This document shows positions 50,355 through 63,973 of a stretch of DNA of 64,000 nt, piece by piece (the first letter of the stretch is position 1; each line of letters opens with the position of its first letter). The translations under genes and the position numbers were made by a program. The notes below the pieces were generated by a model. It worked only from the letters and a program-made list of their open reading frames with translations. It did no database searches and was not told the DNA's origin. This DNA comes from Alphaproteobacteria bacterium (GTDB lineage Bacteria; Pseudomonadota; Alphaproteobacteria; Elsterales; Elsteraceae): positions 1 through 64,000 of the forward strand of contig RDXE01000043.1 in assembly GCA_004292755.1 (NCBI GenBank), in the 5' to 3' direction.

Positions 50355-51224
50355 CTAGCGCTGATTCAAGCGCGCAATCACATCATCCAATTGCTCAAGT
50401 GATCCATAGTGGATCACCACGCGGCCCCGGCCCTTGGGGTCGTGATCAATCACCACCTGCAGACCCAGCAGAGTGGAAATGTCTTGCTGCAGGGCTGCGA
50501 TGTCCGCGTCCCACGCAGCCGCTGGCGTGGGCGGAGGAGGGGTGCCCGGTTCCGCCCGCCGCCCCTTACGGCCTTGGGCCAACCGCTCGGCTTCGCGCAC
50601 CGACAGCCCCTTGGTCACCACCTGCTGCGCCAATGCCTCTGCATCGGGCAGGCCAACCAGGGCCCGGGCGTGGCCAGCACTCAAGCGTCCTTCCCGGATC
50701 ATCGACTGAATGCTGTTGGGCAGGGTAAGCAACCGGAGCAAGTTGGCAATGTGAGCGCGGCTCTTGCCGATGGTTTGGGCGATGCGGTCCTGGGTGTACT
50801 GGAAGTCAGAAATCAGTTGCTGATAGCCTGCTGCTTCTTCAATCGCGCTCAAATCCGTTCGCTGCACATTCTCGATCAGACCGATCTCAAGGGCTTCGAC
50901 GTCGGACAGTTCGCGGATCACCACCGGCACTTCATGCAGCTTGGCTGCTTGGGCGGCACGCCACCGCCGCTCCCCTGCGATGATTTCCCAGCGCGACTCC
51001 GCGATGGGGCGGACCAGCAAGGGCTGGATCACGCCTTGTTCCCGGATGGATTGGACCAGCTGGTCCATCGCCTCGGCATCGAAATGCCGCCGCGGCTGAT
51101 AGCGACCGGGTTGAAGCTGCTCGATCGGGAGGCGGCGGGTTGCCTCCATTGACGGCGCATCGGCTGGGTCGTCTCCGCCAAGAAGTGCTGCGATACCTTT
51201 TCCCAGACCGCGCTTTGCGCTCAT
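50355..51224 (-). CDS. parB: Chromosome partitioning protein ParB
   Basis: ParB binds parS sites, spreads as a CTP-dependent clamp and works with ParA to segregate origins. The 289-aa protein has the N-terminal KRGLGKGIAALLG, the CTP-binding region with GERRWRAAQ, and the helix-turn-helix DRIAQTIGKSRAHIANLLRLL. A Pro-rich linker leads to the dimerisation domain. It overlaps parA by 4 nt (ATGA). Two parS sites lie 1.4 and 3.4 kb upstream. Confidence 0.97.
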   Translation of the reverse strand: MSAKRGLGKGIAALLGGDDPADAPSMEATRRLPIEQLQPGRYQPRRHFDAEAMDQLVQSIREQGVIQPLLVRPIAESRWEIIAGERRWRAAQAAKLHEVPVVIRELSDVEALEIGLIENVQRTDLSAIEEAAGYQQLISDFQYTQDRIAQTIGKSRAHIANLLRLLTLPNSIQSMIREGRLSAGHARALVGLPDAEALAQQVVTKGLSVREAERLAQGRKGRRAEPGTPPPPTPAAAWDADIAALQQDISTLLGLQVVIDHDPKGRGRVVIHYGSLEQLDDVIARLNQR

Positions 51225-52033
51225 GGCCGCACCTCAACGCCTTGGCGCTTCAACAACTCAGACGCGAGGTGGGCATAGGCCAAGGCACCGGGCGAGCGGT
51301 GGTCGTACAGCATGACTGGTTTGCCATGGCTGGGAGCTTCGGAGATGCGGACGTTGCGCGGAATCACGGTCTCAAACACTTGGGTACCGAAGTGGCTGCG
51401 GACGTCAGCTGCCACCTGCTCCGACAAGTTGTTGCGTCGGTCAAACATGGTCAACACAACCCCTGCCAAAGTCAGGGAGCGGTTGAGCGACCGCCGGATG
51501 CGGTCGATGGTCCGCATCAGGTGGGACAGACCCTCCAGCGCGTAGTACTCCGTCTGCAGCGGTACCAGCACCTGATCGGCTGCGACCAGGGCATTGACGG
51601 TCAAGAGCCCAAGCGACGGCGGGCAATCAATCAGGATGGTATCCACCCCGGTGGCGCGGGATTGAATCGCGTCGCGCAAGCGGAACTCACGTCCCTCCTG
51701 ACCCACCAGTTCAACCTCGGCACCCGATAGGTCCACTGTCGCGGTGACGAGGCTGAGACCGGGAATGCCGGTTGGGATCATCACGTCCGCAATGGGACGT
51801 CCATCCAGGAGTGCCTGGTAGCTGCCATTGTCGCGCAGCTTCGGTGGGATGCCCAAGCCGGTGGTGGCATTGCCCTGAGGGTCAAGATCGATCAGGCAAA
51901 CAGTCCGCCCGACAGCCACGAGACCGGTGGCAAGGTTGATTGCAGTGGTGGTCTTGCCGACACCACCTTTTTGATTGGCAACGGCGATCACCTGGGACGG
52001 GCGATGGCCGACAGTATCCGATGGGTTAGACAC
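51221..52033 (-). CDS. parA: Chromosome partitioning ATPase ParA (Soj)
   Basis: The 270-aa Walker-type ATPase has the deviant Walker A VANQKGGVGKTTTAINLA, the A' motif LIDLDPQGNATTGLG and Walker B ILIDCPPSLGLLTVNAL. It drives separation of ParB-parS complexes. It overlaps rsmG upstream by 8 nt and parB downstream by 4 nt, so rsmG-parA-parB are translationally coupled. Confidence 0.97.
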   Translation of the reverse strand: MSNPSDTVGHRPSQVIAVANQKGGVGKTTTAINLATGLVAVGRTVCLIDLDPQGNATTGLGIPPKLRDNGSYQALLDGRPIADVMIPTGIPGLSLVTATVDLSGAEVELVGQEGREFRLRDAIQSRATGVDTILIDCPPSLGLLTVNALVAADQVLVPLQTEYYALEGLSHLMRTIDRIRRSLNRSLTLAGVVLTMFDRRNNLSEQVAADVRSHFGTQVFETVIPRNVRISEAPSHGKPVMLYDHRSPGALAYAHLASELLKRQGVEVRP

Positions 52034-52670
52034 GGGATAGGGACTCCAGAACTAGCACCACGCCGGTCGGGTCGACCAGACTGGGCCGGGTTGTGTGGGT
52101 GAATCGCCAATGACGCTGCGCTGCAGCCACTTCATCGGCCCAGCGCTCCCCCTTCAACAACACCGCGCGTCCCCCCGGCGCGAGATGTCGATGGACCAAG
52201 GCCAGCAGATCCGGCAACGGTGCCAAAGCGCGGGCGGTGACACAATCAGCCGCCAACGGTGGGACAGCTTCTGCGCGGCGCGCTTCCACCGACACCACCA
52301 ACCCCATTACCCGCGCGGCATCCCGCAGGAAAGTTGCCTTGCGTTGATCAGAGTCGATGAGATGAACGTCGCTCAGCCCGCAGGCCGCTAACACCAAGCC
52401 GGGGAAGCCAGCGCCAGAGCCGAGATCGCACAGACGGCGACAGCCGATCAAGTTGGGCCACAGCTGCACACTATCCAGCATATGGCGCTGCCACAGCACA
52501 GGAACAGTTGCCGGACCAACCAAGTTGATTCGGGTTTGCCAGAGCCGAAGCGTCTCGGCATAGCGCTCCAACCGGTCGAGCGTTTCACGTGAAACATGCC
52601 CAGCGACGATGTCCGGACCATCCGGCACCACAGTCCCTGAGCCGTCCGTTGTAGCAGCGTCAGGCGGCAT
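52026..52670 (-). CDS. rsmG: 16S rRNA (guanine527-N7)-methyltransferase
   Basis: RsmG (GidB) methylates G527 of 16S rRNA. The 214-aa protein has [13 protein letters not shown], the SAM motif [16 protein letters not shown] and [13 protein letters not shown]. The ATG at 52670 overlaps the mnmG stop by 11 nt; TTG 52685 is an alternative. A parS sequence is embedded in the coding sequence, where it encodes the residues VSRET. Confidence 0.95.
52581..52596. other. parS centromere site inside rsmG
   Basis: CGTTTCACGTGAAACA differs from the consensus 16-bp palindrome TGTTTCACGTGAAACA only in the first base. ParB is encoded 1.4 kb away. Placement inside rsmG is common in bacteria. Confidence 0.9.
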
Positions 52671-54591: not shown

Positions 54592-54607
54592 TGTTTCACG
54601 TGAAACA
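54592..54607. other. Perfect parS centromere site between mnmG and mnmE
   Basis: TGTTTCACGTGAAACA is an exact match to the universal chromosomal parS palindrome. It sits 7 bp from the end of mnmE and about 7.5-8 kb from the predicted oriC. Confidence 0.95.
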
Positions 54608-60052: not shown

Positions 60053-61080
60053 GGGATCACCGCGGGGCAACCTGTCCATGATTTGGCACACAAGCGGGTC
60101 CCACCCTGCGGACAGGTGCCGGGATCACGCTGAAGCGCCTCCCGCACCAGTCCGGCCAAGCCGGTGATGAAGTGTGGATCGTCACCCACAGTGTCCACCC
60201 GATGAAAACTCGGTACTCCGGCTTCGTGCGCCAACTCGCGATATTCCTGCTCAATCTCGACCAGGGTCTCGGAATGTTCAGAGACAAACGCAATTGGGCA
60301 CACCACCAGCGGCACACCATCGCGCCCAGCGCGCTGGATTTCATCGTCGGTTGATGGACCAATCCACTTCAACGGCCCAACACGGCTTTGGTAGCAGACC
60401 ACTGAATCGAGGGCAGGGTCGGCCAAAGCAGCAACAACAGCCGCTGCCGATTGTTCCACCTGCCACTGATACGGGTCACCACCGGCGACGATTTTCTCCG
60501 GCAGCCCATGAGCGGAAAACAACACCCGAGGGCGACCATGGGCCGCAGCCCCCGCCACGGCTGCTCGCACCCGCGCTGCGACACCAGCAATAAAACCTGC
60601 CTCAGTTGGATAGCAGCAGACGGCTGACGTCGGTGCGGTGATCCCAGCGGCCGCCGCCAGCTTTGTCCACTCCCCCAGGGAGGATGCACTGGTGGTGGTG
60701 GAAAACTGTGGATAGAGGGGCAGCAACACCACGCGGTCCGGACGAAAAGCAGCAACCTCAGCAACAGCGGCCTCAGCGCGCGGGTGCCAGTAGCGCATCG
60801 CGATCACGGTTTTCACCTCGCCCAGATCGGTCAGCGCAGAGGTGAGGGCCTGGGCTTGAGCCTGTGTGTTCTCCAACAAAGGCGAGCGACCGCCGATGGT
60901 GGCATAAATCTCTCGCGCGATCGGGGCGCGGCGTCGCGAGATCAGATGCGCGAGTGCCCACCGAACAGGACCAGGCGCGCGGATGATCGCCGGATCATTG
61001 AACAGGTTGAACAAGAACGGCTGGACAGCGTCTGGAGAATCAGGCCCACCCAAGTTGAACACCACCACTGCTGTGCGCAT
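60049..61080 (-). CDS. hemH: Ferrochelatase
   Basis: The enzyme inserts Fe2+ into protoporphyrin IX, the last step of heme synthesis. The 343-aa protein has VVVFNLGGPDSPDAVQPFLFNLFND, RYWHP, VLFSAHGLPEKIVAGGDPY with the active-site His, and FVSEHSETLVEIEQEYRELA. ATG 61080 overlaps the hemE stop by one base. The C-terminal Cys cluster (CPQGGTRLCAKSWTGCP) could support an iron-sulfur cluster as in some ferrochelatases. Confidence 0.96.
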   Translation of the reverse strand: MRTAVVVFNLGGPDSPDAVQPFLFNLFNDPAIIRAPGPVRWALAHLISRRRAPIAREIYATIGGRSPLLENTQAQAQALTSALTDLGEVKTVIAMRYWHPRAEAAVAEVAAFRPDRVVLLPLYPQFSTTTSASSLGEWTKLAAAAGITAPTSAVCCYPTEAGFIAGVAARVRAAVAGAAAHGRPRVLFSAHGLPEKIVAGGDPYQWQVEQSAAAVVAALADPALDSVVCYQSRVGPLKWIGPSTDDEIQRAGRDGVPLVVCPIAFVSEHSETLVEIEQEYRELAHEAGVPSFHRVDTVGDDPHFITGLAGLVREALQRDPGTCPQGGTRLCAKSWTGCPAVIP

Positions 61081-62138
61081 CACCACCCCCGGATTTGCTC
61101 CACCAGCTGAGTCACATGCTCAGGGGGAGTTTGCGGCACAATGCCGTGGCCCAGGTTGAAGATGAACGGATAGCCGCGCATCGCCTCCCCAATTCGGTCG
61201 ACCTCGCGCCGCAGCGCATCGCCCCCGGTCACCAGCAGCAGGGGATCGAGATTGCCCTGCAAGCAGCATCCGGCAAGCTCCCCCCGCGCCCAATCGAGCG
61301 GCACAGTCGGGTCAAGTGACAGGCCCGCAGGCTTCACGCGCTGCGCAAACGCGCGGTACTGAACCCCGGCTGCACGCGGGAAGCAAATCACCGGTGTAGC
61401 GGGATGACTGTCCTTAAGGGCCGCGACGATGCGAGCGTTCGGTTCGATCACCCAGCGCTCGAACGCCTCCCCACCAAGGGCGGAGGCCCAACTGTCGAAC
61501 AGCTGGACGGCGTCGGCCCCGGCATCAATCTGACGGCGCAAGTACTGGATGGTAGCGTCGGTTACCCGCTCGATCAGCGCGGCAAAGTCATCAGGAGCAT
61601 GCCACAGCCAGCGCTTAGCAGTCTCAAAGCTCTTGGACGACCCGCCTTCAAACATGTAGGTGGCAATCGTCCACGGCGCTCCCGCAAAGCCTAGGAGAGT
61701 GGTTTGCGCCGGAATCTCAGCCCGCAGTCTGCTGACGATTTGGTAGATCGCAGACAGACGGTCATGAAATCGATCGGTTGACAGGGCGTCGATCTCTGCC
61801 CGCGATCGCAACGCCGTCAGTTTCGGCCCCTCACCTTCGGCAAACCAGACGGCTTGGCCAAGCCCATAGGGAACCATCAAGATGTCTGAAAACAGAATAG
61901 CGGCATCGAACTGATAACGCCGGAGCGGTTGATGGGTCACCTCAACGGCATGATCGACAGAGAGGCAGAGGTCCATGAACCCGCCGGCTGTGGCCCGAGT
62001 TGCGCGATACTCTGGCAGGTACCGACCGGCTTGGCGCATCAGCCAAACCGGTGGCGGCCAGACCGCTGTGCCGGAAAGAGCCTGAAGAAGACGCCGGTCG
62101 CTGTGGTGCCCAGTGTCGGGCGGCGTGGACGGGTGCAT
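61080..62138 (-). CDS. hemE: Uroporphyrinogen decarboxylase
   Basis: HemE converts uroporphyrinogen III to coproporphyrinogen III. The 352-aa protein has the signature WLMRQAGRYLPEYR near the N-terminus, AAILFSDILMVPYGLG and LGFAGAPWTIATYM. It is the first gene left of the predicted origin and reads away from it, as hemE does at the origins of Caulobacter and Rickettsia. Divergent start to the DUF299 gene is 390 bp away. Confidence 0.97.
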   Translation of the reverse strand: MHPSTPPDTGHHSDRRLLQALSGTAVWPPPVWLMRQAGRYLPEYRATRATAGGFMDLCLSVDHAVEVTHQPLRRYQFDAAILFSDILMVPYGLGQAVWFAEGEGPKLTALRSRAEIDALSTDRFHDRLSAIYQIVSRLRAEIPAQTTLLGFAGAPWTIATYMFEGGSSKSFETAKRWLWHAPDDFAALIERVTDATIQYLRRQIDAGADAVQLFDSWASALGGEAFERWVIEPNARIVAALKDSHPATPVICFPRAAGVQYRAFAQRVKPAGLSLDPTVPLDWARGELAGCCLQGNLDPLLLVTGGDALRREVDRIGEAMRGYPFIFNLGHGIVPQTPPEHVTQLVEQIRGW

Positions 62139-62528
62139 GCGGCGACTCTCCCCCAGGGGTCTTGGTTTTAAGGAGATAGGTTGTGATGGATGGTTGGGGC
62201 CTGGAAAGCTGGGGATTGTTTTTCATACCTCGCCTGCCCCCGCAACCATCCCCGCATCACGCAGCTGGGGACAAATCGCCCCCGACACCCGAGGTGAGAC
62301 CAGACATCGTGGCGTTACAAGGGGGCGCGGCCATCGCCCCAGGGTGTGTGGATAGCCGGGACAACTGACTTGTCCCCAAATCACACGGCTACAACCGCCC
62401 GCGTTACCCCGAGGCGGATGGCGGGCTGGACGAACTGGCCCCAGTGGGGATGAATGGAGCGGCGTGGTCGCACCCGGCCAAGCTATCCCCACTGTTCAGC
62501 AGTTATCCACAGGAACCGGCCCCGCGCG
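62139..62528. other. Predicted chromosomal replication origin (oriC)
   Basis: This is the longest gap in the window, between hemE and the DUF299 (RP001-type) gene, the known origin site in alphaproteobacteria. It has a perfect DnaA box TTATCCACA (62503-62511) and a near match CTATCCACA on the minus strand (62347-62355). Five TCCCCA hexamers resemble the weak W-boxes of Caulobacter: 62210-62215 (-), 62266-62271 (-), 62373-62378 (+), 62445-62450 (-) and 62486-62491 (+). A T-rich stretch lies at 62160-62230. Genes on both sides read outward. Confidence 0.8.
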
Positions 62529-63356
62529 ATGACAGAGCCCCGCTTAATCCATCTGCATCTGGTGTCCGACAGCACAGGCGAGACCGTTGATCGCGTCGCC
62601 GATGCCTGCATCGTCCAGTTCGCCAACGTCACACCGAAGAAGCACCTTTATCCACTTGTGCGCACCCAACGGCACATCGAGCGCATTCTGGGTACCATCG
62701 AACGCGATCCGGGGCCCGTGGTGTTCACGCTCGTTGACGCAGTGATCCGGGGTGCCCTGCAGGAAGGCTGTCGGCGGCTGCAAGTCCCCGCGATCCCGGT
62801 GCTCGACCCGGTGATTGGAGCGCTCGGCTCCTTCCTGGGTCAAACCGCGGGGGGGATTGCGGGCAAGCAGCATGAAATGGATGCCGAATACTTTCGCCGC
62901 ATCGATGCCATGACCTATGCCCTTGCCCATGATGACGGGCAAGGAACCTGGAACCTGGATCAAGCGGACATTGTCCTGGTCGGCGTCTCGCGCACCTCCA
63001 AAACCCCAACCTGTCTGTATTTGGCCAACAAGGGCTTCAAAGCGGCGAATGTACCACTGGTTGCAGGCGTCCCGGCGCCGGAGGAACTGTTCCGCCTGAC
63101 CCGTCCCCTGGTGATCGGCTTAACCAATGATCCCAACCGCTTGGTGCAAATCCGCCGAAACCGTCTGGACAGTTTGGCTCAAACCGAGGAGACCGATTAC
63201 ACGGATGTCGAGCAAGTTCGCCAGGAGGTGACGATGGCCCGACGCCTATGCGCAGAGAATAATTGGCCGATGCTCGATGTGTCCCGCCGCTCCATCGAAG
63301 AGACCGCTGCGGCCATCATCGCGCTCTACAGCCAACACCGCGGAGCCAATGCATGA
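62529..63356 (+). CDS. PEP synthase / pyruvate phosphate dikinase regulatory protein (DUF299)
   Basis: The 275-aa bifunctional kinase/phosphorylase controls PEP synthase or pyruvate phosphate dikinase by Thr phosphorylation. It begins LIHLHLVSDSTGETVDRVADA, has the P-loop-like VGVSRTSKTPTCLYLANKG, and YTDVEQVRQEVTMARRLCAENNWPMLDVSRRSIEETAA near the end. This is the gene next to oriC in many alphaproteobacteria. It overlaps maf by 4 nt (ATGA). Confidence 0.95.
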   Translation: MTEPRLIHLHLVSDSTGETVDRVADACIVQFANVTPKKHLYPLVRTQRHIERILGTIERDPGPVVFTLVDAVIRGALQEGCRRLQVPAIPVLDPVIGALGSFLGQTAGGIAGKQHEMDAEYFRRIDAMTYALAHDDGQGTWNLDQADIVLVGVSRTSKTPTCLYLANKGFKAANVPLVAGVPAPEELFRLTRPLVIGLTNDPNRLVQIRRNRLDSLAQTEETDYTDVEQVRQEVTMARRLCAENNWPMLDVSRRSIEETAAAIIALYSQHRGANA

Positions 63357-63973
63357 CAGCGACTTTGCTGCGACCGGGTGCACCGCCACTGGTGCTGGCG
63401 TCGGGCAGCGCCACCCGCCGACAGTTGCTCGAGTCAGCGGGTCTGCCGGTGATCGTCGATCCCGCTGGTGTTGATGAAGGCGAAGTCAAACAAAGCCTCA
63501 AGGCTCAAGGGGCTGACGCCGCCGAGGTTGCCGAGGCGCTGGCCGATTTGAAGGTTCGCCAGACGGCGCGTCGCCATGGCGACGCCATCACCATTGGCGC
63601 GGATCAGATGTTGGACTGCGCCGGGGTCTGGTTCGATAAACCGGCCGATCTCGACCATGCGCGCGCACACCTGCAGGCCCTCGCGGGTCGGACCCATGAG
63701 CTGATCAGCGCGATTGTCGTCTACCGCGGTGGTGTGCGCGTTTGGCACCATGTTGAGCGCGCACGCTTGACCATGCGCTCCCTCGATGCACCCACACTGG
63801 ACGCGTATCTGGCGGCTGCGGGCTCAGCGGTGATCGGTTCCGTCGGTGCCTATCAGGTGGAGGGGTTGGGCATTCATCTGTTCAGCCGGATCGAGGGTGA
63901 TCACAGCACCATCCTTGGTTTGCCTCTGCTGCCCCTGTTGGGATTCTTGCGCCAACATGGCGTCATCCTTTAG
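63353..63973 (+). CDS. maf: Maf family nucleotide pyrophosphatase
   Basis: Maf proteins hydrolyse non-canonical or free nucleoside triphosphates and affect septum formation. The 206-aa protein has VLASGSATRRQLLESAGLP at the N-terminus and the conserved ITIGADQML (where relatives have a similar AD core). GRTHELISAIVVYRGG and GSVGAYQVEGLGIHLFSRIEGDHSTILGLPL follow. The start overlaps the upstream stop. Confidence 0.94.
   Translation: MTATLLRPGAPPLVLASGSATRRQLLESAGLPVIVDPAGVDEGEVKQSLKAQGADAAEVAEALADLKVRQTARRHGDAITIGADQMLDCAGVWFDKPADLDHARAHLQALAGRTHELISAIVVYRGGVRVWHHVERARLTMRSLDAPTLDAYLAAAGSAVIGSVGAYQVEGLGIHLFSRIEGDHSTILGLPLLPLLGFLRQHGVIL

Follow-up and report, generated by a model that had tools for sequence, protein, structure and literature searches.

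The 390-bp gap between hemE and a DUF299 gene in a 64,000-bp stretch of alphaproteobacterial DNA (the window) was identified as a predicted chromosomal replication origin (oriC), ordinary in kind, with a probability of about 0.94. This reading, already proposed in the earlier note, was supported by the position of the gap, a cluster of DnaA boxes, a turn of GC skew, linked parS and parAB, class-wide conservation and the lack of a rival box cluster. The gap and its borders were as follows.

61080–62138, minus strand: hemE, uroporphyrinogen decarboxylase, left border (NCBIfam TIGR01464).
62139–62528, no strand: predicted oriC (hemE/DUF299 synteny in 78 class members, box cluster, GC-skew minimum at 63,389).
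62529–63356, plus strand: DUF299/COG1806 gene (PPSR, pyruvate phosphate dikinase regulator family), right border (NCBIfam NF003742, start codon).

The hemE frame started at 62138 and the DUF299 ATG lay at 62529, so the gap was exactly 62139–62528. Divergent hemE and COG1806 genes a few hundred bp apart are a mark of alphaproteobacterial origins of this kind; for Caulobacter this location rests on experimental mapping and for Rickettsia on prediction (PMC1914354). The border genes here were the same as those of Caulobacter crescentus Cori (hemE-CC0001) and of Rickettsia prowazekii oriC (hemE-COG1806, a gap of ~400 bp) (PMC1914354). Comparable hemE/DUF299-flanked gaps were found in 78 measurable loci of the class, 13 others being left out as one gene was absent from the fetched stretch, some at contig ends. 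With these borders and this order kept around the 78 gaps, the usual alphaproteobacterial origin place assigned earlier was supported; the claim that both flanking gene sets read outward held for the immediate neighbours, while the contig as a whole showed only a partial strand bias. In two relatives represented by one contig each, the DUF299 gene lies at record positions 326 and 413, which would fit sequences opened at this origin. In two genomes (G005 and G007, loci L006 and L008) of one genus of the same family, the 1.5 kb upstream of the DUF299 gene contained no hemE, which suggests a rearranged origin neighbourhood there.

Seven sites of DnaA-box type were located in the gap.

62210–62218, minus strand: W-type box CAATCCCCA, on the side of hemE; no other W-type site was conserved as well in the family.
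62266–62274, minus strand: W-type DnaA box TTGTCCCCA.
62347–62355, minus strand: single-mismatch DnaA box CTATCCACA.
62370–62378, plus strand: W-type DnaA box TTGTCCCCA.
62445–62453, minus strand: W-type DnaA box TCATCCCCA.
62483–62491, plus strand: W-type DnaA box CTATCCCCA, on the same strand as the perfect box and 20 bp from it, start to start.
62503–62511, plus strand: perfect DnaA box TTATCCACA, with no second copy in the window and 12 in all in the 4.21-Mb genome.

The one consensus and one single-mismatch box reported before were thus found again, at 62503 (+) and 62347 (−), as were all five TCCCCA hexamers on both strands, at 62210 (−), 62266 (−), 62373 (+), 62445 (−) and 62486 (+). 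Five copies were far above the 0.18 expected from the rate in the window. TCCCCA is also repeated in the Caulobacter origin, and the likeness to Caulobacter W-boxes pointed out earlier is real in sequence (PMC4285127). Both Cori and the gap combine few strong boxes with five TCCCCA each (PMC4285127, PMC1914354), the strong box being TTATCCACA here and the G-box TGATCCACA in Caulobacter.

Written out as nine-mers (TTGTCCCCA twice, CTATCCCCA, TCATCCCCA and CAATCCCCA), the five sites resembled TTATCCACA with a C at position 7. Judged by their sequences, the TCCCCA motifs are better read as nine-base DnaA boxes of this kind (TTATCCCCA) than as free-standing words, which is a small advance on the earlier note. 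When boxes were counted by the rule TT[AG]TCC[AC]CA, allowing at most one mismatch among the first three bases, the gap contained six against 0.15 expected, and none of 3000 simulations reached six. The rest of the 96-kb contig contained 21 such boxes, never more than two per 393 bp; the 9 kb around dnaA contained two, both weak, and the 2 kb around each of the other 11 perfect boxes contained one or two. No rival cluster was therefore found near dnaA, around the other 11 perfect boxes or elsewhere on the contig, and among all these places the cluster in the gap was unique.

Across the 78 class gaps, TTATCC (8.7-fold) and TCCACA (7.9-fold) were the most enriched hexamers, and TCCCCA was enriched 3.5-fold (116 seen, 32.8 expected), figures that somewhat overstate significance, as related species are not independent. 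The bases preceding these 116 TCCCCA sites were T (66%), T (48%) and A (66%), near those preceding TCCACA. Outside the family of the window, TT[AG] within one mismatch preceded 72 of 103 sites (70%, against 25% by chance). Within the family, four TCCCCA sites were present in the same-genus gap and three in that of one other genus. Several sites were common to the window and the same-genus species, and the box count here was above that of most relatives. The family alignment was best conserved at the hemE-side site (62210), where TGGGGATT recurred in the same-genus gap and in one further genus; in a third, the sequence was CGGGGATT.

The GC-skew check that the earlier note had called for was run on the 96-kb contig, as the assembly consists of 95 contigs and the whole chromosome is not assembled. 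At this scale the cumulative skew turned at the locus, its minimum lying at 63,389, 0.9 kb from the gap. The skew was −0.014 on the left, where it was weak and irregular, and +0.044 on the right. A parABS system was also located close by.

50355–52033, minus strand: parB (50355–51224) and parA (51221–52033); ParB scored over the TIGR00180 cut-off and ParA had ParA-like ATPase matches.
52581–52596, plus strand: parS with one mismatch, from a genome-wide parS search.
54592–54607, plus strand: perfect parS TGTTTCACGTGAAACA, one of the two parS-like sites of the genome.

A search of the whole genome that allowed up to two mismatches gave these two parS-like sites and no others; they adjoined parB, parA, rsmG, mnmG and mnmE. 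With parS and parAB, the system lay 8–12 kb from the gap; parABS is linked to the origin in Caulobacter as well, and parAB has been proposed as an ori anchor in Alphaproteobacteria (PMC8116508). The skew minimum and the parS/parAB cluster thus both fit an origin at 62.3 kb.

Several features spoke against an origin: the gap was not AT-rich, an IHF consensus was missing, the DnaA-trio rule failed, and the left skew was weak and irregular. The gap was 63.6% GC against 63.8% for the window, so its A+T was not raised; PMC1914354 uses A+T above the genome average to predict origins, but an origin need not have it to function. The IHF consensus WATCAANNNNTTR, tried in its E. coli form only, had no match in the gap, and TTAA-N7-TTAA (CtrA) sites were absent even with two mismatches, as the earlier note had seen. 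The gap thus differed from Cori, which has five CtrA sites, in lacking such sites and an IHF consensus match and in not being AT-rich, and from the Rickettsia origin, for which CtrA and IHF sites are reported (PMC4468827, PMC1914354). An exact CtrA site was also missing from 72 of the 78 class gaps, where sites with at most one mismatch were no commoner than chance, and lack of CtrA sites is the usual state of alphaproteobacterial origins outside Caulobacter (PMC4468827). The absence alone is therefore no evidence of a control logic different from that of Caulobacter, as the earlier note had suggested it might be.

A candidate unwinding element was found beside hemE.

62158–62207, no strand: 50-bp segment of highest A+T in the gap (48% GC).

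This segment fell within the lowest 2.5% of 50-bp windows on the contig. It is the likeliest candidate for the opening site, and possibly a diverged counterpart of a trio-like block conserved in the class. In many relatives a block like GTAGTGGATGCC-TGTGGATAA-CGGGGAT lay 50–350 bp from hemE, with a DnaA box aimed at trio-like repeats. The block brought together the repeats, a canonical box and, next to it, a CGGGGAT (ATCCCCG) box, for example at 103–130 of the L010 gap and 99–126 of the L012 gap. The DnaA-trio consensus is 3′-GAT-5′ (PMC8287927, PMC10721633), and the orientation of the box toward the block was taken to be DnaA-trio polarity. Many class relatives thereby resembled the basal unwinding system (BUS) found in Bacillus subtilis and many other bacteria (PMC8287927), with a trio-like GTAGTGG block by the hemE-side box and the box pointing toward it, whereas the copy in the window had diverged. 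A profile of the class element matched thirty gaps at E < 0.001, training members included, but gave no significant match to the window (E 8.7 at the corresponding place, 35–79 of the gap). The published BUS rule asks for a DnaA box with no more than two mismatches and, no farther than 16 bp from it, at least three NAN trios; three consecutive trios so placed were absent from the gap. The rule is blunt, missing some relatives with an evident block and being satisfied by 14–23 of 78 shuffled gaps. Since the profile match was insignificant and the published rule failed, a BUS is not claimed for the gap, and the trio-like element beside hemE appears to be a diverged remnant at most.

By analogy with Caulobacter and with general oriC biology, DnaA would first occupy the consensus box at 62503 and the near-consensus box at 62347, and would then extend over the weaker boxes with C7 (TCCCCA) on either strand. 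It would open the AT-richer segment next to hemE (~62158–62226), helicase would be loaded there, and two forks would leave outward. ParB bound to parS, 8–10 kb to the left, would segregate the duplicated origin.

The gap could instead be an ordinary divergent hemE/DUF299 promoter region with DnaA acting as a transcription factor, the true origin lying elsewhere, for example beside dnaA. The region is indeed divergent and intergenic, and promoters too can be regulated through DnaA boxes; on another contig, a perfect box lies ~79 bp upstream of gcrA. Such a promoter would leave the seven box-type sites in 390 bp, the skew turn, the parS linkage and the class-wide conservation unaccounted for, and the surroundings of dnaA offered just two weak sites in 9 kb. 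We consider this very improbable. Even less probable is an ancestral origin out of use, its position and boxes persisting by gene-order inertia. As might be expected of a disused origin, the trio-like element next to hemE is more decayed in this genus than in the class, and hemE is missing within 1.5 kb in two genomes from a different genus of the family; but boxes here outnumbered those of most relatives, several were shared with the same-genus species, and the local skew turned at this place.

A further alternative accepts the origin and takes the TCCCCA excess as a by-product of local G+C-rich composition instead of DnaA binding. At 63.6% GC, the gap does contain many G/C runs. Simulated sequences matched in dinucleotides gave 0.54 copies against the five observed, none of 300 reaching five, and across the 116 class sites the three bases before TCCCCA followed TTA as in true DnaA boxes. 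A composition effect therefore seems improbable, and an origin with TCCCCA sites acting as weak DnaA boxes is preferred.

The CtrA of the genus was unusual in its protein sequence. CtrA genes were found in both species.

G000:C48:52297–52965 (L131): CtrA locus in the genome of the window.
G001:C2:16929–17597 (L132): CtrA locus in the congener.

Against a Caulobacter CtrA query, most relatives had 66–82% identity, members of the same family 67–69% and both species of the genus 42–43%. The DNA-binding domain kept the CtrA signature (60% identity to Caulobacter), whereas the receiver was only 30% identical, against 60–64% in other family members. D51 and the acidic pair were kept, the lysine of KPF was replaced by arginine (RPF), and the C-terminal tail was missing. 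The best NCBIfam model was CtrA, at 225 bits against a cut-off of 350. Absence of CtrA from the genus, which a best match of 42% might suggest, was ruled out by the clearly CtrA DNA-binding domain. The genes of the two species were under purifying selection (receiver dN 0.135, dS 1.13).

ChpT was present in five of seven other family genomes and was not detected in the genome of the window (99.91% complete) or the congener (88% complete), where weak matches were histidine kinases or kinase-sized frames; the weak match in the genome of the window was rejected as an ordinary histidine kinase. As the family is divergent, ChpT is probably absent from the genus. Some alphaproteobacteria are reported to have degenerate phosphorelays in which CtrA and CckA occur and ChpT does not (PMC2877005); no description of a degenerate CtrA receiver was found in the literature searched. 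With a degenerate receiver and no detectable ChpT, control of the origin by phosphorylated CtrA looks unlikely in the genus, and a control logic different from that of Caulobacter is plausible on these grounds.

GcrA was also present, with a perfect DnaA box (G000:C65:34541–34549, L109) ~79 bp upstream of the likely gcrA start (match from 34628). Control of gcrA by DnaA is known in Caulobacter, and this box would fit such control here. As a tentative model, to which we give slightly less than an even chance, the CckA-ChpT-CtrA layer would have come apart in the genus: CtrA would retain DNA binding through its kept domain while the receiver would probably no longer be phosphorylated via ChpT, ChpT would be gone, and, in an origin free of CtrA sites, the timing of initiation would be left to DnaA and its many weak C7 boxes, perhaps coupled to GcrA through DnaA.

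The gap is almost certainly a further case of an already known type of oriC, and the predicted origin of this alphaproteobacterial genus is now placed. As read from the 78 gaps, TCCCCA sites are a general feature of the origins of the class in the form of nine-base DnaA boxes, and so the W-box probably did not originate in Caulobacter. With its degenerate CtrA, the genus is a natural case for asking to what extent the CtrA circuit can be dispensed with in an alphaproteobacterium.
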